Assembly: GCA_037367355.1 (NCBI GenBank)
Contig: CM074695.1
Coordinates: forward strand, 1,426,001-1,490,000
DNA length: 64,000 bases
From: Neoscytalidium dimidiatum
Taxonomy: Eukaryota; Ascomycota; Dothideomycetes; Botryosphaeriales; Botryosphaeriaceae
Direction of reading: 5' to 3'
The position numbers were made by a program, and so were the translations under genes. Under the pieces are notes generated by a model. That model did no database searches. It was not told the DNA's origin and worked only from the letters and a program-made list of their open reading frames with translations. Positions 36,101 to 54,126 of this stretch are shown here, piece after piece (within the stretch, counting starts at the first letter, position 1; each line of letters opens with the position of its first letter).

Positions 36101-38367
36101 TCACGACAACATCTGCTCGCTTCCCCGACTACTTCTCCTGGTCTCGAGCATATGCGACGATCCGCGACTGCTCCTCCGCGCATCCAACATATTCGATGAA
36201 CCACGGCTGCTCCTTCTCTGCTCAACCATAGTTATTTCTCCTTGTTTCTCCTTCTGCATCTCCGCCACGAGATCCGTGCGGCTCGCCATTTTCTGCTCTC
36301 GTTTGGCCGCCACTGCCAGCGGCATGACGCCCACCTGTGCTGAGCGGCCCTGCGGGGCCTGAGAGATGCGTTGTTGTTGATTATTTTCGCCTGAGGTCAA
36401 GGGTGCCATGCCGTACCATACAATAGAGGCCATCCCGAGGAACGCGGCAATGCAGCTAAAGACAAGTGCAACAATACCCTTAGCCGTGAAGCCGGACGGG
36501 AGCGGGTCGGGGCTCTTGTTCTCGCCGGTGAGGTCCTCGTAGTCAACCGTGTTGCCCGCAGCGTTGCCTTGAGTGAGCGTGCCGGCGGCAGCACAAGCTC
36601 GCCAGTGATCAGCGGGAATATTATTGCTCAGCTGAGACTGAAGGTCCAGAGGAGCTTCAATCATTGTAGCAATGAGACCCGAGGCTACATGCCTACGAAG
36701 TACGAAACAGTCAGGGGGTGCTCATAGCTACGGAAGGAGAAAACGTACCATTCAATATGGCAATGGAAAAGCCAGACACCGGGATTATCAGCCTTGAACC
36801 TCAGCACAATGTTGCCATTGGGGCGGACGAGGATAGTGTCACGGCGCATGGGCGTCTGCGGAAAGGTCTCATTCGCCACGTAAGCACCGGCTTCTTCGTC
36901 CGAGCGTACTACAGCCTGGAAGGCATGGCCGTGAAGATGAAAAGGGTGCTTGCCCGGGTCATTGTTGTTCAAGACGATCTCCACAACTTCATCCTTCTCC
37001 AGAACGAAACTGTTGGTATTGCTACCGTATATGACCGGATCTGTAGCATTGTTGCCGGTAGACAGAACGGTGTAGAGCGTTGGAACCTTGGGCTCAACAT
37101 ACGTCACATCGTTGAAAAACGCACTGGGCAGGTTAGTATCTGGGTGTACGTTGCTGACTGCAGAATGCTTACTAGTTGGCTCCATCTCCGAGGTTGTCCA
37201 TCTTCAGATCCAGGGTAATTGAATGATCAACTCGATCGTACAAAGCCATACCGTCCTGAGGCACAAGTGTGAAGTCGTCGAAGGGTTCATATTCGCCAAT
37301 GGGCAATGGTGGCAGCAAGTTCAACTTGGGATCGTAAACAAGCCACCCAGTGACGTTATTGTTGAGGCCGGCGGGAATGGTATCGAAGAGATCCTGCGAC
37401 TTGTTGGCACCTTCCAGTGTCTGGTTGCTAGAGTACTCACCTGATCCATACTCCCAACAAAGGCGAAGTTCCCACTTGTATCATTTCTAGCAGTAATGAT
37501 AACGCTATACCGCTGAGCAGCAGTCATGTAAATCATGTCAGCGTCAGCGGGTTCAGTGTAGATACCGTCCACTTCGATGATTCGCATAGAGTGGCCTTCA
37601 AACCACACATACTGGGCGGCGAAGGCACCGATGTTGATCAGGCGAAACATGTATCTCCGGCCTGGCCTCACTTGGAAGGTTAGGTTTTGAGTATCATTCA
37701 CAAGAGCCGCATTGGGGACAGGCTCTGCTCCAGTGGGGTTGGTGACACTGATGAAGCTTTTCATGAGATCCGGGATTCGGTCATGATACCAATCAGAGAA
37801 GGTGAGGATAACCTCCTCATCGTAATCATCGCTGAATGGATTGTCCGGGTCTCTGACAATGAGAGGCCCGCGGAGTCCATCGGGATACTGGCCGCGATTA
37901 TGAGAATGGTACCTTTCACCGTGTCAATGCCGCGAACTCATGATGCTGAGGTATATACTCACCAGTATGTTCCCGGTTGGTCTACCTACACATCGTTAGT
38001 CGAAAATGCGGCCTGGGTAAAGAGCGCGCCTTACGGTGAAGTTGTACGTGAATGAACTTCCTGGAGGGATTTCGCACTGAGTCACTCCGGTGGGGCCATC
38101 CATGTGATTCGTCCCATTCATATAGATGCCGTGGAAATGCAAGCTGGTGCTCTCCGTCTCAAGCTGGTTGTTGACATTGACGACGACGCGGTCGCCTTTG
38201 GTGACGTCGATTGCAGGCAGAGGCCACTGGCCGTTGATGCCGATGGTCGTGCGACGATAGGCAGCATCAGGGTTGGCGGTCACCCAGGTCACGTTGAAAT
38301 CATAGGTGACTGTGGCAGCATTGCTGCACAGGGCGGCGGCAAGCAGGAGGAACGGAGAGCGAGCCAT
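36101..38367 (-). CDS. FET3: Iron-transport multicopper oxidase (Fet3 ferroxidase)
   Basis: Six exons: 38367-38035, 37985-37963 (only 23 nt), 37912-37441, 37393-37173, 37123-36749 and 36692-36101, giving ~671 aa. There is a signal peptide ([19 protein letters not shown]), then three cupredoxin domains. Copper ligands are visible: LHFHG (76-80), YHSHNRGQ (~120), [11 protein letters not shown] and [21 protein letters not shown] is the fungal Fet3 signature before domain 3. A C-terminal membrane span ([22 protein letters not shown]) marks it as the membrane-bound ferroxidase rather than a secreted laccase. The cytosolic tail ends in three tandem RRSSRGS-type repeats. Family role: oxidise Fe(II) with O2 at the plasma membrane and pass Fe(III) to Ftr1. 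It is divergent from FTR1, which sits 1.16 kb away, implying co-regulation by iron. Confidence 0.96.
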
Positions 38368-39531
38368 TGCGGAGAGGGGTGCGGGTGAGAGCCCGGTCTC
38401 AATTACCCCTCATATACGAAGCGAGAGCGTATCGGCAGCGGGTCGGGTGGACGAGTCGTCTGGACAGAGTCGAATGCGCCTTGATGCGAGGTCCAGAGGG
38501 GTGTCGGAGGAGAGTGGCTTGGATGGCGGGCGGCAGGTAGGTCAGAAACGAGGCGTGATTGATCGATTAGATTTGATAAAGTTTAGCATCTGATTATCGA
38601 GACGGAGACGTCTGGCCACAACAGCGGATGAAGCCGACGCAGCGAGGGCGCGGAGAGGAGCAGCTGTCGTGTCAGACGAGCTAGCCAGGGTCCAGACAAG
38701 CCAAGGTGCCCAGGTTGCCGGCTGAAGCTTAATGCACAAATGCCGCAACGCGGGCTGGGGCAGCTGCAGGGCCTATGAGACGGTCAGAATCAGATAAGAA
38801 GCAGCAATATATGGGCCAAGCGTCGGCGACAGCGGTGTGAACAGCACTAGTGAGGCGGCCTGAGAGCGGTCCGCGACATGAAGAATGCCGATTCCTGCCC
38901 AAGAAAAACAAACGCGAGGGGAGGCTGGTGGCGAGGCCAAGCGCCTCTCTGGGGTGATACGACAGCTGATCCGCCATCCGGTCTTCCAAACCTTTCTGTC
39001 CGGCGTGGTGGCTGGAGCTAGAGGCTAGTCAAGCAGGCATGGACACGAACCGTGGGACCGTGGGCGCGGCGGCAGCGGATCTACCTAGGACCCTGCGCGG
39101 TGTGCGGCCTGCGTTTGCGTTTGCGTTTGCGTGCATGCCGCGGCTGCGAATCGTGCAGCGCGCGCGGAGATATTCATAGCAGCGTTCGGCAGCGTGTTGG
39201 CTGATCCGTGGATCGCTGGCGTGCGGTCGAGCAAGCAATGGCCAAGCTCCACGGCGGAGAGGCGGACGGCGGGGCGGCAGAGATGGGATGAGTGGAGAGG
39301 TTTCTGTGAGGGTGCAGCGCACTAGTAATGCACAGGCCGCCCATCTGGCCTGACCCTTGTGGCATGCTGCGAGAGCACCCCGGAACGCGCGCCATCAAAG
39401 CCCGCCATAAGCCTATGATCCGCCTCCTCTTTTTGTCAGTCTATCTGATCAATGCCAGCCTCCCTCCTTCCTCCTACCTTGCGAAAGGGCCCTTCTGCAA
39501 CTCCTCTCCGTCGAGGCGCTGTGCAGCCACC
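38368..39531. promoter_or_regulatory. Shared bidirectional FET3-FTR1 promoter
   Basis: The 1,164 nt between the divergent start codons must serve both genes. It holds a perfect ATCAGATAA at 38789-38797 and near matches ATCTGATTA (38588-38596) and CTATCTGAT (39441-39449, i.e. ATCAGATAG on minus). Fungal iron-repressor GATA factors (SreA/Sre1/Urbs1 type) bind ATCWGATAA. I saw no clear CCAAT box. A GTTTGC repeat lies at 39111-39133, and a CT-rich stretch precedes the FTR1 ATG. Confidence 0.6.
38789..38797 (+). promoter_or_regulatory. Candidate SreA-type GATA site
   Basis: ATCAGATAA is an exact match to the ATCWGATAA consensus of iron-responsive GATA repressors, about 420 nt upstream of FET3 and 735 nt upstream of FTR1. 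A nine-base match can arise by chance, but the location between iron-uptake genes raises its likelihood. Confidence 0.5.
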
Positions 39532-40927
39532 ATGGTGAACGTTTTTGCCGTGCCCGGTAAGTGCGCCAGCGCGGAACAATCCATGGCTGCAACCCACCGC
39601 TTACGATCCCCCAGTTTTCTTCATCTGTATGCGCGAATGCCTAGAGACGAGTATTATCGTCTCCGTCCTGCTATCCTTTCTCAAGCAGACGTTGGGCCCG
39701 GAGCATGATGCTCAGACTTACAAACGCCTGGTCAGCCAGGTCAGTATCTTCCCTCAAACATTGAGCGCATTGGAGCTAAACATGGATCTAGGTCTGGTGG
39801 GGAGTAGGCGTAGGCCTGTTCATTTGCCTCGCAATCGGAGGTGCTTTCATCGGCGCCTTTTACGGCATTGGCCAGGACTTCTTTTCCAAAACAGAAGACC
39901 TCTGGGAAGGCATCTTCAGCCTGATCGCAACTGTCATCATTACGGCCATGGGCGCCGCCCTGTTGAGGGTGAGCAAGCTCCAGGAGAAATGGAGAGTAAA
40001 GCTCGCGAAGGCCCTTGAAGTCCGCGACAATTCCAAGACAGTCACGCGAAACCGCATGAAGAGCTGGGCCGAAAAGTATGCCATGTTTCTGCTCCCGTTC
40101 GTGACCGTCCTGCGCGAAGGACTTGAAGCCGTCGTATTCATCGGCGGGGTCAGTCTTGGAATGCCAGCAGAGAGCTTCCCACTGGCTGTTGTTGCCGGCT
40201 TGGCTGCAGGCATCCTTATCGGTTACTTCATCTACAAGTAAGCATTGAACCGCCTGTCAATGTGCATACCTGTGCTCACAGAGAGAATTAGGGGAGGAAA
40301 CTTTACTTCTCTGCAAATCTTTCTCATCATCTCCACTTGCTTGCTGTACCTTGTTGCCGCAGGCCTGTTTTCTAAGGCGGTGTGGAATTTCGAAATGCAT
40401 CATGTAAGCATGACGCTTTCCCGAATGATCCACGACATTCGTATTGACTCTCGCAGTGGAGCCAGCTTACCGGAGGGGATGCCGCCGAAACCGGTTCGGG
40501 TCCTGGCTCGTACGATATTCGTCAAAGCGTATGGCATGTGAACTGCTGTAACCCGGAGATCAACGGCGGTGGCGGCTGGGGTATTTTCAACAGCATCCTG
40601 GGATGGCAGAATTCGGCGACATACGGCTCTGTCATCTCCTACAACCTCTACTGGTTGGTAGTGATTGTGACATTTATCATCATGCGTCACAGTGAGAAGG
40701 GCGGTCGCATGCCATTCGTGAAGAGCAAGGCAAGCTCCCCGCGCGACAGTGAGAGCGAGCCAGGCATCCGAGACAGTACCATTTTCGGGAAGACTGTGGC
40801 GGATGGCAATGGGGTGCCGGCAACAACAAATGTGCGAGAGATCCACGAGCAGGGGACTCGCGACTCGAATAGGATTTCGTCGCACTCCCGCCTGTCGGTG
40901 CTATCGGCCGACTTGCGCCAGCATTAG
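39532..40927 (+). CDS. FTR1: High-affinity iron permease Ftr1
   Basis: Five exons: 39532-39556, 39615-39739, 39792-40237, 40292-40403 and 40457-40927, giving 392 aa. The first exon is only 25 nt; all junctions keep phase. About seven membrane spans are present. The two iron-binding RExLE motifs are RECLE (residues 15-19) and REGLE (158-162). Other family landmarks are [51 protein letters not shown] and the exoplasmic HVNCCNPE. The C-terminal tail (~70 aa) is Ser/Glu-rich and probably cytosolic, with possible phosphorylation or ubiquitination control. Family role: the plasma-membrane Fe(III) channel that works only in complex with Fet3, encoded next to it. An Fth1-type vacuolar paralog is unlikely given the FET3 neighbour. 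Confidence 0.96.
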
Positions 40928-45774: not shown

Positions 45775-47486
45775 ATGGAGCCAGCCTCGTCGAGAGCTCT
45801 CGGGATTGCTCATGTCGTTGCTAACATCCTCCGTCGCCAAATAGATACCTGTCAACAGGTCGACAGGCGAAACGTGTCATGGCTCCCCAAGCTTGCTTTG
45901 GTGAACAAGCTATGGGCTGACGAGGTGACTGAGATGATTTGGGCACATCTCGAGGATCTCGAGCCTCTTCAACGCGTCAAGCCAGATCGCCGCCAGTACT
46001 ATGCTGCGAAGATTAGGTCCCTGAGAGTGGAGCTTGACCCTCGCTCACCTCCAGTCACGGCTTGCCTCTTGGATTTGGCTCTATCACGCCTGAGAGAAGT
46101 TGAGATGATGTTCTATTGGGATGCGACGCTGCAACACATTCCGCCTATCCTGACACCAGAACTCCGCAAAGTCACGGTCCACTGCTCAAATCGATGTCTC
46201 TCTCGCGCTACTGACTATGCTATGCAAGCCATCATGGTGAGTTGCAACTTTTACTTGCCCGCATGTTGTATTTGCCACTTCTGGGTCTTGACTCTGCTGC
46301 TGGCCAGTTCTGTACTGCAACTTCCACGTTCACAACCGCATCCGTATCTTTGTAACTCATCTTATGGCATTTATTCTCTTTTCACGCTGATCCCACGTCT
46401 CAGATGCGGTGTAAGAGCCTTGAAACACTCAAGTTCATCGTCCCATCGCGCCATCTGGACTCGGATCGGCTTCTCGAACTGTTGATCAGCCAAGGCCAAA
46501 CTCTCTTGGACTTCCGGATCCACTTAGCCGACGTCCTCGCCCAACCGTTATTAAACGAGGAAATTTCCACTTACATTGCTGGACAGTCTGTAATGCGGAA
46601 TGTTCATGTGCCACAGTTGAAGCTGTATGCTCCGCGAGATTTCACTTCATTTGGGACTCTTGAGATGCTCGATGCCAAAGTTGATTATCAAGCACTTTTC
46701 ACCATCAGCGCTTCTCTTCCACGGTTGAAGACTCTCCGGGCCACTCTACTGCGCTGTCAAGGCCTTTCTTCCGAGCCGCTAGATCCAATCCTTTCTCGCT
46801 TAGCCGCCAGTGCCCAACTTGAGATCCTGGAGCTAAATCGAGGTCCTCAACGACGAGATGATGCTGACATTCAAACTCCAGTAACTCTCTCGGGAGCTGT
46901 TTTTGCGGACTTTACTCAAAGCTGCCGAGGCTTGCGAGAGTTCTGCTTAGCAATTCAACCGGGAATCGCTGTACAAGATTTTGATGTGGAACATCTCCGA
47001 TGTGCTGCCTTGTCTCTCCCACGCCTACGTGAAGTGAGGCTTTACTTCACACCGGAAGCCAGCTCTTTGGCAGCTGCGGCCGTTTCAGTCTTTGGAGAGA
47101 ACTGCCCCGAATTGGAATCCTGCCATATTTTGGGAGAATTTACTGTTCTGGACATCGACTGGGACACCGAGACAATCTTCCCCAAGCTCCGCAGTCTCAG
47201 TTTGAATCAGATCAGAGGCCAGAAGACGAATTCGTCGCTTGACACTTATGATTCGAACCTTCGGAAAAAGTTTCCTCGACTTGAACTCTTGCAGGTAATG
47301 AAGGCCTTTCCCGGAGCACTCTCTGCGCCCACTTGTTATTTCTTTAACATTCCGCGTGCTCCCCGGAGCGATCCTTCTGCTTGATACATCCTTCTTGTCC
47401 GACCTGGGTGGATCCTGTCGTCTCCTGCCTCGCTCGGTCTTCAGTTCCAATCTGAAGATCTTGAGCTGGATGCACACTTTGTGTAA
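45775..47486 (+). CDS. F-box/LRR-like protein
   Basis: Exons 45775-46236, 46404-47294 and a proposed 47445-47486 give about 464 aa. The N-terminus (ALGIAHVVANILRRQ...WLPKLALVNKLWADEVTEMIWAHLEDL) has the look of a fungal F-box: a helix, then LALVNKLWADEVTEMIW matching the L-V-C/N-x-x-W core. Leucine-rich segments follow (LETLKFIVPSRHLDSDRLL, LPRLKTLRATLLRCQGL, AQLEILELNRGP, LPRLREVRLYFTPEA, FPKLRSLSLNQI). If it is an F-box protein it would act as a substrate receptor in an SCF ligase. Intron 1 is 167 nt. Without the proposed second intron (GTAATG...CTTCAG) the frame ends at 47384 with an unrelated tail, so the 3' end is the weak point. Confidence 0.7.
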
Positions 47487-48463
47487 GAGACAAGAGCGAC
47501 TCTTCGACGATTTTTGAGTATGAGTGCGCCGGAACTCGTCCAGCGGTGGACTCGTAATTTATCTGTCGGAACATACAATTATTCCATTCGAGCTTGCTGT
47601 CCACAGATTTGATGTTAATAAAAACAGAAACTGTTGTTCTACTACACTCAGTTTCACATGGTCGATTTTCCTGTGTGCATCTTCTCCTTGGTGTTATGCC
47701 TGTAGTCATCGAGCATTGCAAGTTTTGTCTCCAGCCGTACAATTGATGCCTTGTGATCCAACTTCTTTGTCTCTGGCGCTTTACTTCTTGGACTGTAGCA
47801 GTGCTTGTCACGATAGCTTTCACTTCGGAAAGCTCCTGCATCCTTGGATTCCTGCTTCAGGCAATGATGTGATTTTGACTGCTCCGTGGGTGCGGCATAG
47901 TTCGACTGAGCCTGATTGGCGGTTCCCCTCGCCATCAGGCCTGTTGTGACATCATTCCATTTGGCAGGAAGACAAGCCTTGGAAATTTTATCTAGTGAGG
48001 TGCAGGACAAGCGGTGAGTTTAAATTTCAAGCCGTTGTCCTTTCACCCTTCGCCAGAAGAATTTCTGCCAGCTCCCGATAGTCAGGATTCCTAAATGGTC
48101 ACCCGCTTGAGTACTGATAGCGGAGGGGAAGCACTCCTAGATAATTAAGCGCTTACTAAAACAAAAGCCGTAATTCGCGATCCGTTCATTAGCGGACAAT
48201 TTTCGCATGTCCGCTAAATATCTCTATAAGCAACGTACTGCATACCGGACGTTTGCTTACGGACTTGTACCGGCCCGGCTAATGAGTCGTTCTGCGCTCA
48301 TCGTTTATTGATGGTTAATTCTATGCTTTCTTGATGATGCTCGGTACTGTCAAGTTCCGAAAAAGAAATGATATTCTTGGCAGTGACGAGAGGGAGCTGA
48401 GGCCCGGCTCTCATCATCTGAGCTACGCTTAGGAAGCTATTTACACGCGACCTCGACAATCAT
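47487..48463. other. AT-rich intergenic
   Basis: About 980 nt downstream of the F-box-like gene. AT-rich, with broken open frames on both strands. It marks the left side of the block of damaged genes. No gene or recognisable element. Confidence 0.5.
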
Positions 48464-50021
48464 TCATCCAGCGGCTAGGAAAGCGTTGAACTTGTTGACT
48501 GTAAGATACACCCCGGCCGGCTGCGCCCGTAGTGAGAAGAAATCCTCAAAATAAATATAAAGTCGACAGAGAATATAGAGTAAACAAGTGACCGTCACGG
48601 GAAAGAGAACTTGTAGCGAGATTTCCATATCGGTGTCCTGCTCCGGTGATATATGCCTGCAGGACCGCACCCAGTGCACGAAGTGCTCCATCCGTTGGCG
48701 AATGACAGTGTCCGAGCGCTGCAGAAACCACCCTATACGCTGAGATTCTGGATCTTGGACCTGCGTATCGTGGCGAGAACGAAAGGGAAGCGAAGGCTCC
48801 TGGCTGTGTGGACATTGCCGCTGACTGCTCCTACACATCTCAATCAGGTAGTAAATCCCGCCATAGATACTGAAGAATGCATGGTAAACACTGCAGATCC
48901 TCCACAATATCTGCTCAGTATATGTGGGAAAGTGAAAGTTCCATGCGGTGAGGAATAGGATACTAAAGCCAATCTGTATAACGGCCGCAAGCGGAGCAAA
49001 CTTCGCGTCCGCGCAAAGCCAAGTGTCCGAAAGGAATCGGTCCCAAGGTCGTGATTTGATGGGACGAGATATAAGGGAGAATCTCGCCATGTGCGCCAGT
49101 CTGATGTAATAGTTCCAGTGTGTGTTGATGCGGAATTGATTTCGTCCGACAAAGTCCAATGGTGTTTGATACCAGGTATCTGTAAGCTGTGGATGCGTCT
49201 ACCGGTACCAATCATTAGTAGATGTGTTTATGACCAGACCAAGGTCGTACATTTTCCTTAGCAAATGCTCGGATGCTTTCCATCGTCTTCTGTCTTTTCG
49301 TTTGGATGGGGCGAGGTTGTGAGATCGAGGGTTTTGGATACCAGAGTAAGGAAGTCGCAAACATGACGAAGGAAAAGGAGATTGCCGTGAGCTCGAGAGT
49401 CGTGATAGGCAAGCCAGTCAGGGTACGCTGTATCTCCGTGACGAAAAACCAAAAGGTTTGAAAACGGTGATAATGCTGTCGAGGCGTAAGAGCAAACTCA
49501 ACACTGGGGAGCGACGGGTGACACTCACCGTGAAAGAGTATCCACCTTGTTTCTTTCAGCGATGGCCAATTTTTCTATATCTGGAAATTCAACGTGCTTG
49601 TGGACAAGTAGGTAATGTAGTTGCTCGGCATTGATGGGGAAGCCACTCGGGTAGTCAGGACTGATGAGATGAATGCCTCCCATGTCCACGAGGAAAGCAT
49701 GGGCGTATGTCCATTCTATACCATTGCACAAATGTTCATTCCCCTTGAATAACTGCACGAAGACCTCCTGTTAGCTATAATCTTCTAAGCATATGATTAG
49801 CCTGAGTAACATTGCTTGCCTTCACACTCTTCCTAGCGCTGGAGAACTGTCCGAAGGCGATGCCGAAGAGAAAATCTGGACCGAGGATGCCGATCAAAGC
49901 AAGACTGCACTTGTCGAAAAGAAGGTGGTACCATTTGTCTTCGGTCGAGCCTACGTTTGGGAAGGTTGGAAACCCAGCAACACAGGAAGATGGTGACGCA
50001 GGAGGACCACATTATGTCCAT
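48464..50021 (-). pseudogene. Frameshifted multi-span membrane protein (fungal family, function unknown)
   Basis: Segments in order: 50021-49816 (MDIMWSSCVTIFLCCW, then ILGPDFLFGIAFGQ), 49752-49529 (WTYAHAFLVDMGGIHL, INAEQLHYLL), about 49484-49212 (TFWFFVTEIQ, GLPITTLELTAISF) and about 49178-48464 (PLDFVGRNQF, WNFHFPTYTEQILWRI, VYLTVNKFNAFLAAG). These are the landmarks, in order, of a common fungal membrane family whose role is not established. The frame shifts by one base near 49964 (in CCCAAACG) and again near 49460 (in TTTTCAAACC), and no plausible intron repairs either. The first internal intron uses a rare GC donor (AAG|GCAAGC). No signal-peptide exon is recognisable upstream. Sequencing error could mimic one shift, but two shifts suggest decay. 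Confidence 0.7.
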
Positions 50022-50548
50022 CGTACCCCTATCATTACTGGATGATGTTCATCCGTATATTTTATCTTCGTATGTGACATTTTGGAAAATGAAGCTATGG
50101 TTATCTTCCATGAGCGATCTTCTTCTCCGCAACAAACACTTCAGGACAATGACTCAGCCTGGTAACAGAGAGAAGCAAGGAATTGAACAAAGATGTGAGG
50201 TTGCGCAAATTTGCATAAACACGAACAGCAAAATAGAACACCAAGGAATGAACGACATGTATTTTAGATGTTCAGTAGGCTATATATGCAGCAAGACAAA
50301 ACGAGCATCTCATCATAAGACGCGCCTCTCACTAGTATAAGATTATAGTTTCTGGCTCGCGGCGTCTTCCCGTCTTGCGGCGTCTTCCAGTCTTACGGTG
50401 TGTTCTAGTCTCGTAGTGTCTTCCAGCCTTGCCAGCGTGCTGTCTTACACGCGCCTCACAAGATAGCATATTACTATAGCGTGCCTCTCTAATACCAGGC
50501 GGTCTTCTTAGTTCATCGTTCTCGATTCGGGTGGCTTTCAATTGTATC
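50022..50548. other. Intergenic with minisatellite
   Basis: Separates two damaged genes. Contains the 18-bp minisatellite at 50360-50431 and repeated ATAAGACGC-CTCTCA-like strings near 50315-50330 and 50550-50565. No gene. Confidence 0.55.
50360..50431. repeat. 18-bp minisatellite, four copies
   Basis: Four tandem 18-mers of the form CGGCGTCTTCCAGTCTTG, diverging to the right, with a fifth partial copy up to about 50447. It lies about 150 nt from the proposed inversion breakpoint. Confidence 0.85.
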
Positions 50549-51184
50549 TTATAAGACGCTTCTCAGACCGAAAGATGGGAGAAGACAAGACATGCTGCTT
50601 ATCTTGCAAGCCGTCTCGTAGAGAAATCTTGGGAAATCGTGATCATATTCGAAAAGAGACAAGCGACCACCGGGGCGGAGAACACGGTAGAAGCCCGCCA
50701 GCACCGCCATGGGGTCGGTAGCATGTACAAACGTCTCCATGGTGTAGACACCTTCAAATGATTTTTCATCGAGACTTTCGAGGTGATGGTAGTCCATCTT
50801 GCGCACCTCGACCTGGCCCTCAGACAGGCGCGACCGGACGACGTTTCGCCTCGCCTCGACTAGATGATGATCGACAACATCAATCCCTTGCACACGGTAT
50901 CCGTACTGCCTTGCAAGGTGTAGAGCAACATGGCCCACGCCACATCCAGCATCAAGAACGTGGGCTCCCGATGAGAGGCCTAACGACGCCGCCATCTTGT
51001 CTTCCATGGCGCGTAGAGCACGGTTGAGGGGAAAGGGCCAATATTTATCACGCTCGTAGTAGCCAAAGTGACGTGTACCGCCGAGCAATAGTCGATATCC
51101 GATTCTCGATTCGAGCGAGAGATAGTATGATTGGAGCTGAGGATTGCTGTTGATTAGCAGTTCGCGCTCCGAGGCGGGTGCCAT
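50549..51184 (-). pseudogene. N-terminal half of a sterol-methyltransferase-like enzyme
   Basis: Open frame of 211 codons from ATG 51184. It holds the SAM-binding core: motif I VLDAGCGVGHVALHLA, post-I VQGIDVVDHHL, and motif III region FYRVLRPGGRLSLFEYDHDF. After FLYETACKI (about 50600) the sequence stops resembling the family and runs ~16 residues to a stop. The missing C-terminal half is found on the opposite strand at 51577-51915. The intact protein would be an Erg6-like (24-C) methyltransferase paralog using SAM; the substrate is unknown. The first ~600 nt show no internal stop, so either the break is recent or a truncated protein is still made. Confidence 0.8.
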
Positions 51185-51576
51185 GCTTCTGACAGCGCCG
51201 GAAAAATGGTGTTCAGTGGCTTGATAAAGTTACAAGCCTGAATGCTGATGCAGTTAAACCAAGTTGAGAGGCGCGAAGGGGATGGATCTTTAGATGAAAA
51301 GGTGGGACTTGACGCGCTGCGGAGGTAGAAACAGAGTGTGGGAGCTCAATGACTTCAAATTGTCAGAGAAAGTGAAGCGATTGGAGGACCAGATCACCAC
51401 TGCGGAGAGGCGGCAACAACAGAAACACCCTGGCTGTGGTGGGAGACGCGCCTGAAATAAACAACAGCGGTTCAATTTCGGGTGGTACAATGCTACTATT
51501 TTTAAATGGAGAAGAAAGACATACCAGAGCTCCCACCAAGACAATTTAAGACAAGCCGGAAGAATCGCCTGATTAC
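51185..51576. other. Spacer between the divergent methyltransferase halves
   Basis: About 390 nt, probably the original promoter of the methyltransferase gene, now inverted together with its 5' half. The minus-strand frame at 51290-51544 has no recognisable content. Confidence 0.5.
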
Positions 51577-51915
51577 ATGGAAGCCTCGATGCATAAGATC
51601 AATGCGTTTGCTGCCATTCCAACCAACGCTGTATCGCATCCTGGCGTATTCAAAAGTATGCTGGAGGACGCTGGCTTCACCGACATTGCCGTTCGAGATT
51701 ACTCTGAGAACATCAGGCCCATGACAAGGCTGTTTGCTGTCATCGCCTACATTCCTTTCCTAATCATTACCTTCTTCCGACTTGAACGATACTTCATCAA
51801 CACTGTGGCTGGAGTGGAATTGTACCGGGGTTATGGCCGCTGGCGGTACGTTGCCATCTCAGCAACAAAGCCGCGGGATCGGTTACGAGAGCGTGGAAGC
51901 ACGCGCCAGGTTTAA
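51577..51915 (+). pseudogene. C-terminal half of the methyltransferase, opposite strand
   Basis: 112 codons from an ATG that is internal in the family. The sequence (INAFAAIPTNAVSHPGVF, MLEDAGFTDIAVRDYSENI, PMTRLFAVIAYIPFLI, FINTVAGVELYRGYGRWRYV) matches the C-terminal, lipid-facing part of Erg6-like methyltransferases and carries no SAM site. It begins at exactly the point in the family where the minus-strand half ends. On its own it cannot be catalytic. It may be untranscribed, or transcribed from sequence in the inverted promoter. Confidence 0.8.
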
Positions 51916-52931
51916 CAAGTAATCAATTATCAAATCCATCAGGTATCAATCCCAGAAACAACACGCAACATACCTCTTTATGCTCACACGATTGGCTAAA
52001 GGACAAGTGTATTTAATCCAGATATTTTGCTACTCAATTCAAGAGGTCAGCAGTGTGCACTTCATTCTTCTCACACTGCTCGACATCCGCTTTTTATTGA
52101 CTCTCTCTCTCTCTTGCTTCATCACTAGCGTGATTCATTGTCATTCTCATGCAATACAATCTCTTAACACGAAGGTACTCTTCTTTACAAATAAGTGAAC
52201 AAACACGTAGACCTTCTGCTATTCAGAGGATCAGACAGCTTAGATTCATTTATGATCAGCCCGGCTGTTTAAAGGGGTTTTATACCGTCTAATGCAAAGC
52301 GATTCGGAATCGTTGTTAAAATACTGCTAAATGTGCTTGCGGAGAAGGTTCTCTACGAGAATAATCAGTATGTCACCGCTTCATGTAAAGACATCCTTAA
52401 GCCCCACGTTACCCATACCTAAAGTTTATCACGATAGCGTGCCATTACCGGAATGTCGCTCTGAAAGCATTGCGGTAGTTGCCTGTTGTTTCCTTTGTCA
52501 AGTTCCAGTCGACTGTCTTGCCCACTGCTGTGGTCGCTGCCTCGCTCAAAGTATATGCTCCTATAAAGGTTAAATTATACCTTAGCTCGGACCGTTAAGA
52601 CTTTCTAAAGTAATACGTCTACAGATAGAGGCTTGTAAAGAACGTCGTAGGCCTTTCCTCGGGAAAGAGTATATCGTACTCGGGTTCCGTGCACGTATCC
52701 GATAATACTCTATTCCAAGCACTATGAATAATACTCCCTATAAAAGCCTTGTTCGGATTCCTGTTCACATTTGTATCTATGTTATCTACAAGCTTGGCTT
52801 TAGTGGTCTTATGAAGGCTACGTATATCTTCTTAGAGAATTCATCATCCAACAGCAAATATTTTCTCCAATTGGAACCCATTTTCCTAATCTCTCAAGCT
52901 CAGCAGTATTTCCAAAACTCACTATTACATC
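51916..52931. other. AT-rich intergenic
   Basis: About 1 kb with short broken frames (for example 52331-52573 and 52724-53002), none with a recognisable domain. It may contain old mobile-element sequence, but I can identify no termini. Confidence 0.45.
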
Positions 52932-53218
52932 ATGCAGTTCACTATTGTCCTTGCCCTCCTCTTTGCAAGTCTGGCCCTGGCCACACCAACATATTCGGGT
53001 GAAATTGAAGCGCCAGAGCCGGGACTGCAACTAGGGCGAGATTTGCTGGTGTAAGGGTAGCTGCGCTGAGGGCCGGTGTCGCTTCTCCTGCTGTACCTCC
53101 GCCTTGTGCTCTGTTTGCGGCGCCCAATGCAATGTAGTAAGTACCACTTCTTCCTTATATCTAAGTTCCAACTTGGTAGCCAAATCAGATTTCTCCAGTG
53201 CTAGACGAGCTTCAATAA
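52932..53218 (+). pseudogene. Broken small cysteine-rich secreted-protein gene
   Basis: ATG 52932 opens a clear signal peptide (MQFTIVLALLFASLALATP) followed by a short acidic Pro/Glu pro-region. The frame then reaches TAA at 53055. One base out of phase, from about 53035 to 53136, a second frame encodes nine cysteines in ~32 residues, including a CxC and a CC. That frame ends at a canonical donor (GTAAGT, 53137), and a 52-nt intron leads to a short final exon (53189-53218, TAA). The shift falls in the GGG run at 53034-53036. No donor/acceptor pair restores phase without removing the signal peptide. Such small cysteine-rich proteins are often fungal effectors or antimicrobial factors; the function here is unknown. 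Confidence 0.65.
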
Positions 53219-54126
53219 TAGGCGGAAAAATCGAGCAGCTCTGTCCTTGGTACATGGCCATTCAACAACTCTTCCCGCCAGTATGGAAGGCTAGAGAGTC
53301 ACTTTTTTTGCTAGGTAGATTGGCAAGGGGGATTCACAGTGTAATTGTTAGAAAATCACGTGTATTTAGCTTTAGTGCAGTTTCAGCTGCGTACTAGCCG
53401 ACTGGAGTATAAAGAGGGGCACCTCTGGCACCCCGCCTCTAGCATGCCCAGAATACTGCTTCGCTTTTGCAACGTCTTCTGAACTTAATAGTAATGAAAC
53501 CCCTAAATTGAAAGCTCTGGTTATTTAGACCGTCTGCCCTGCCGAGAGATGCGCTGCTCTTCTTGAGATATCTCCCAACGCCGGTATAGAACATGGCTCG
53601 GCTATCCGATCACTCGCGAAAATTAAATCTGCTTCCTGGTATCGACGTGATTTTCTCCTACCATATCTTTCTTCATCCGCTGCCATTTGTCTAATAGGCG
53701 TCTACTTGCCGCTGTTATAGTTAAATCTTGGGATGGCCTGCACTACTGCCCAGTGAGTCTGCGCCTTATTTCGGAGTTATAGTACGTTCGAAAGTATGCT
53801 GACGTCAACCTTGATGCGGCGCAGCTCGCAGTCATGGTTGGGATGTTTCTGGATGCCTTCTAACTTGGAGATGGGGAGATTGGACCCTTCGACCCTGTCG
53901 TTGTTGTTCCCTTCTCACATACTGCATCCCCGTTATCCAGCGCTCAGAACCACTGTATGCCGAGGCGATACAAGCACAGAATTAGTGGACATACAGTATT
54001 GATAGAGAGTACAGATGCCCCAATGCCGATAACTCCCCCAACGGCCAATACACCAGACACCGATCCAAGTATTACAGACACCATGAGCTTTCTGCACCAA
54101 CACTCAGCGCCCCAGAACACACATCT
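53219..54126. other. Intergenic
   Basis: About 900 nt between the broken secreted-protein gene and the 3' end of the SRA-like gene. No frame with a recognisable domain. Confidence 0.5.

Follow-up and report, generated by a model that had tools for sequence, protein, structure and literature searches.

In the 64,000-nucleotide stretch of Neoscytalidium dimidiatum DNA analyzed here (the window, C1:1426001-1490000 of a genome of 43.76 Mb in 40 contigs), a methyltransferase which is a single protein of 300 residues in relatives is present as two head-to-head pieces on opposite strands. The minus-strand ORF (51184-50549, 211 aa) aligns gap-free with residues 1-183 of the intact ortholog P0002, with 163/183 identities, and the plus-strand ORF (51577-51915) aligns with residues 192-290 of the same protein, with 88/99 identities. 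Neither half contains an internal stop, as the first-pass annotation of this DNA had stated. Eight proteins picked among 120 listed homologs (P0002, P0003, P0004, P0005, P0006, P0008, P0010 and P0016) were compared by tblastn with positions 48501-53500 of the window, and all eight gave an identical layout of two segments. With P0002, residues 1-183 were covered by the N segment (89% identity, E 4e-110) and residues 183-290 by the C segment (85% identity, E 1e-58). The N segment started at 51184 on the minus strand (51175 for P0010); the C segment, which is plus-strand, began at 51550-51562 and ended at 51870-51885, so that homology of the C-half at the DNA level extends to about 51550, upstream of the ORF start at 51577, which is the first in-frame ATG of this half (residue 192). 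When the same comparison was repeated over the whole window, the next best match beyond the two segments had an E-value of only 0.048, and a two-segment match by chance is excluded. At one locus, opposite strands carry the reciprocal portions of a single ortholog, which is the layout of a gene-breaking micro-inversion. The earlier proposal of a methyltransferase split head-to-head, its N-half on the minus and its C-half on the plus strand, is borne out by 8/8 homologs, and each half matches P0002, with no sign of different parent proteins. The features of the locus are collected in Table 1.

Table 1. Features of the split methyltransferase locus, in positions of the window.
Feature	Positions	Strand	Basis or remark
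Degenerate 18-bp tandem repeat, 4.1 copies	50359..50432		some 200 bp away from the left cut
Left-flank sequence continuing the N-half ORF (its residues 185-211), 27 foreign codons and a stop	50549..50632	-	
Left inversion breakpoint zone, best estimate 50632/50633	50627..50638		end of homology
N-terminal part, residues 1-184, SAM-binding core, strands 1-5	50633..51184	-	alignments; Pfam Methyltransf_11, E 1.3e-18
Roughly 370 bp of 5' flank (putative promoter), turned around along with the N-half	51185..51555	-	position
Right inversion breakpoint zone, best estimate 51555/51556	51550..51561		start of homology, 51550-51562 in 8/8 homologs
C-terminal part, residues ~185-290, helices and last two strands	51556..51873	+	alignments; model
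Stop and C-terminal tail, no longer in the register of the conserved family end	51874..51915	+	

The cut lies at codon 184/185, and the uncertainty of each breakpoint is about 3-6 bases. On the minus strand, 50633 is the last base of codon 184; on the plus strand, codon 185 starts near 51556 and codon 186 starts at 51559. In six of the eight homologs, BLAST prolonged the N match to residue 205/206, which generated an overlap of about 20 residues of low identity with the C match. Because this extension adds just 3 identities over 21 residues in the case of P0003, like P0002 an intact protein (157/205 vs 154/184), the break was placed at residue 184/185, and the extension past residue 184 was taken as noise in the alignments. 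An inversion of about 50633-51555 (923 bp) leaves no more than one or two codons of the conserved protein, as far as residue 290, unplaced. The ends of about 50600 and 51576 given in the first-pass annotation fall at the same locus and are shifted by about 33 and 21 bases, the flipped piece being about 0.92 kb long.

The N-half matches methyltransferase families, the Pfam model Methyltransf_11 among them (Table 1), and it carries SAM motif I, in which L77, D78, A79, G80 and G82 are invariant and C81 is near-invariant in 39 sequences. Together with a Rossmann-like core, these matches assign the protein to the class I SAM-dependent methyltransferases. The intact ortholog was modeled with AlphaFold2 (39 sequences, mean pLDDT 76.9, pTM 0.80, with residues 1-7, 37-53 and 293-300 below 50), and the model positions the cut just after the strand formed by residues 169-182 (strand 5) and before the helix 190-202. 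The N-half comprises strands 1-5 and the SAM motif and the C-half the last two strands of this model, and neither half would form a complete fold. Both halves break at the same point of the fold, residue 184/185 after strand 5, in agreement with the earlier description. Calling this fold Erg6-like was loose and too specific. The sterol methyltransferase C-terminal domain (Pfam Sterol_MT_C) is absent from the matches of P0002 (E 0.01) and of either half (E 1), and the solved folds nearest to the intact ortholog are the small-molecule methyltransferases AtmM/RebM, TleD and MitM (PDB 6uv6, 3bus, 5gm1, 8zc8). These structures are 21-26% identical to the ortholog in the rows listed, and the same enzymes are also among its best sequence matches. 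Names given to the family in the sources vary ('methyltransferase type 11', 'sterol 24-C-methyltransferase', 'S-adenosyl-L-methionine-dependent methyltransferase'), and no NCBIfam model reached its cut-off for P0002 among the 25 of 51 matches listed.

The named relatives closest to the methyltransferase among the matches listed belong to Neofusicoccum and Phyllosticta (Botryosphaeriales). No near-identical protein was found for the N-half among the best 120 of 1710 matches (top identity 89%), nor for the C-half in the 19/19 matches listed (top 78%); the species seems to be missing from the proteins searched, entries that lie very close to this genome may be excluded, and such negatives bear little on other isolates. 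Plasmid records contained only relatives below 60% identity, bacterial by organism name (134 records), and among viral contigs only distant methyltransferases were recovered (17 loci, best segments at 26-54% identity). For the neighboring vWA protein, the best match by E-value has 87% identity over 93% of the query, and among the best rows the top identity is 91% over 71% (Diplodia), the named matches being Macrophomina, Diplodia and Neofusicoccum.

Elsewhere in the window, an H/ACA snoRNA, snR36, is located at 47418-47575 on the plus strand (Rfam RF01242, 72.8 bits for a gathering score of 43). Multicopper-oxidase-like ORFs, recognized by eye, adjoin an exon of an FTR1 iron permease (Pfam E 3.2e-6) at 36101-40018 and possibly form with it a reductive iron-uptake pair. 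The region 52000-54000 beside the broken gene is AT-rich (GC 0.42-0.49). Heavy RIP at 52-54 kb was rejected on the usual index thresholds: TA/AT rises up to 1.22, yet (CA+TG)/(AC+GT), at 1.10 or more, does not point to it. A dispersed repeat of about 145 bp (53346-53494) lies about 1.8 kb from the right cut and has 28 further full or partial matches in the genome at 73-91% identity; the three copies compared share their start base, their ends differ by at most 7 bases, and no terminal inverted repeat was seen by eye.

The head-to-head halves could also result if, in place of a single inversion, the gene had been duplicated in inverted orientation and the two copies had then lost complementary parts. 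The two deletions would have to meet within a codon or two, and the window yielded no trace of either missing part, the sole other DNA match to either half being 14 bp long (E 0.071). We hold such a history to be extremely improbable. In the whole genome, no second copy of either half was found besides that of the window, apart from a weak match to the N-half on contig C3 (46 residues, E 2.5e-4). The inversion put forward in the first-pass annotation is well supported by the reciprocal parts of the same ortholog and by this lack of a leftover duplicate in the window. A single small inversion would be the simplest history of the locus, because the cuts lie just 0.92 kb apart and the pieces are oppositely oriented.

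A search which omits simple repeats and very common words gave no further match in the genome to either the left flank (47400-50640) or the segment 51180-51580, and a transposon or repeat at the cuts was rejected. No inverted repeat was detected at the cuts beyond what shuffled sequence gives (exact seeds of 9 and 5 bases, gapped alignment up to ±300 bp): between the two 71-base breakpoint zones the longest inverted match is 6 bp, a length reached in 169/300 shuffles, and out of 500 shuffles, 250 equaled or exceeded the gapped inverted alignment score at ±50 bp, 245 that at ±150 bp and 398 that at ±300 bp. This absence of inverted repeats would fit two breaks followed by end joining, and not recombination between repeats. 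Direct similarity of the two zones was also scored, and the local match was reached by 141/500 shuffles at ±50, 4/500 at ±150 and 14/500 at ±300; these shuffles are mononucleotide and the figures hence soft. A direct 7-bp word is common to both zones (50607 and 51552). Direct repeats do not drive inversions, and the similarity does not predict one and counts against the explanation that we prefer. The degenerate 18-bp tandem repeat near the left cut is merely compatible with the reported association of breakpoints with simple repeats in Dothideomycetes, because 10.5% of positions between 30 and 64 kb and 23% of those of the whole window lie within 500 bp of a tandem array (26 tandem-repeat rows merged into 20 arrays). 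The proximity may therefore be due to chance.

One rival reading is an inversion confined to the assembly. Assembly errors that flip a segment usually involve a pair of inverted repeats, of which none was found at the cuts; the locus moreover lies inside a large contig, C1 reaching at least 4.78 Mb, and the altered C-terminal tail of the C-half would have to be independent damage. Such an artefact appears decidedly unlikely. The first-pass annotation had also considered that the event might be switchable. In such a case the enzyme would be turned on and off as the 0.92-kb piece changes orientation in certain cells or generations. The near-lossless cut and the conservation of both halves are in line with such a switch, and gene-truncating invertible regions do exist in filamentous ascomycetes, as reported for the mating-type (MAT) locus of Sclerotinia (PMC3574095). 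Against it, the Sclerotinia region is described with identical 250-bp repeats, whereas no inverted repeat beyond chance occurs at the ends of the present piece, and the extreme C-terminus is already out of the family register. The proposal is left unsupported by these data and we consider it very improbable.

The condition of the two halves was then compared with that of the 112 full-length homologs which remained when 8 of those listed (120) were omitted for a length outside 290-320. The N-half departs from 3/86 columns conserved at the 90% level, and 35/112 homologs depart at least as often. At the 95% level it departs from 3/78 columns, which is matched or exceeded by 14/112 homologs, a hint of relaxed constraint; P0002 itself shows 4 departures. 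The C-half departs from 1/47 columns at the 90% level, a value matched or exceeded by 77/112 homologs. Private changes in the window and in P0002 numbered 16:13, 15:12, 14:14 and 11:11 with four outgroups, counts which omit sites where all three sequences differ (8, 10, 9 and 15, respectively). For the C-half alone, with P0003 as outgroup, 8 private changes were counted vs 3 in P0002 (p 0.23). Accelerated decay is not clearly seen, save for the 95%-level hint and the C-terminal tail. Beyond residue 290, the last ~10 residues of the C-half leave the family register and the near-invariant lysine 298 is missing in frame. Because another reading frame past residue 290 resembles the family end, the alignment suggests a small frame-shifting change.

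If both halves have been neutral since the break, the latter would have occurred within the last 9%, 20%, 45% or 76% of the branch at an assumed omega of 0.05, 0.1, 0.2 or 0.3, respectively. The upper bound on the age hinges on the selection strength assumed. The young event proposed in the first-pass annotation is likely, given that internal stops are lacking, that the conserved columns are mostly kept and that rates are not measurably raised; its youth is not tightly bounded.

The ordinary conservation of the two halves would equally fit continued selection on both, in which case they might be expressed from the shared divergent region as a split enzyme or in a new role. The open frames are consistent with this reading, as are GC3 values of 0.57 and 0.59 for the two halves, near those of the importin and vWA ORFs (0.62 and 0.65; 0.96 for the MFS ORF), and the C-half has its own in-frame ATG at residue 192. 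The partition of the fold argues against it: in the model, strands 1-5 would reside in one polypeptide and the last two strands in the other, the N-half bears 27 foreign residues and the tail of the C-half is altered. Nor is a precedent established by the C-half search: its 19 short matches measure 73-188 aa, none exceeds 78% identity and several come from short contigs. A split enzyme or new role of this kind is, in our opinion, quite unlikely. Because neither half holds a complete methyltransferase sheet, the gene is most likely dead.

Taken together, these results make it highly probable that a one-off micro-inversion repaired by end joining has left a young pseudogene, the ancestral gene having been on the plus strand; from them we infer a single inversion, end joining, loss of function and youth. 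End joining is pointed to because the breakpoints show no inverted repeat. The ancestral gene order, deduced solely from the protein alignment, would be that of an intact class I SAM-dependent methyltransferase gene on the plus strand. One break would have fallen inside the coding sequence, at codon 184/185, and its partner about 370 bp before the start codon, and the intrachromosomal piece consisting of the 5' flank and codons 1-184 would have been rejoined in reverse by end joining, without repeats and with almost no sequence lost. The N-half would have retained about 370 bp of its own upstream region, running at its other end into foreign sequence and stopping after 27 residues, and the C-half, deprived of the original start, would have come to lie head-to-head with it. 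There is a slim chance that the locus represents instead a polymorphic reversible inversion without long inverted repeats, or a split enzyme driven by one divergent promoter. If so, a metabolic enzyme of a filamentous fungus would be toggled by DNA inversion, or would be made in two parts from one divergent promoter.

On the reading that we favor, a micro-inversion followed by end joining, the locus would be a clear record of a small inversion, resolved almost to the base, in a fungal class whose chromosomes inversions have reshuffled. The breakpoints are directly readable because one cut falls inside a conserved protein and the other beside it. Broken genes of this sort may escape gene finders or be annotated as two spurious genes. 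Among the papers listed in our literature search there was no report of this broken methyltransferase locus, which is not to claim that none exists.

N. dimidiatum (Botryosphaeriaceae) belongs to the Dothideomycetes, the class in which chromosomes have been reported to be reshuffled by the intrachromosomal inversions behind mesosynteny, with simple repeats over-represented near inversion breakpoints (Ohm et al. 2012, PMC3516569). Our locus resembles these inversions in the host class and in the inverted intrachromosomal segment; a tandem repeat also lies within 500 bp of one breakpoint, perhaps by chance. The inversions of that work were described as rearrangements between scaffolds of different genomes; here a 0.92-kb piece cuts one gene. 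A second comparison is offered by the MAT locus of Sclerotinia sclerotiorum, also a filamentous ascomycete, where a small inversion of 3.6 kb truncates MAT1-1-1 (PMC3574095). That region is reported with identical 250-bp inverted repeats and with two orientations segregating 1:1; none of these repeats, which mark both ends of a programmed invertible region of the Sclerotinia MAT type, has a counterpart at the present cuts. The flip/flop mating-type switching of Ogataea polymorpha, likewise a fungal chromosomal inversion, involves a reversible 19-kb inversion induced by nitrogen starvation (PMC5720833); its role is in mating type, whereas nothing here suggests regulation. Set beside these systems, the methyltransferase locus clearly exemplifies a type of event already known, and not a new mechanism.
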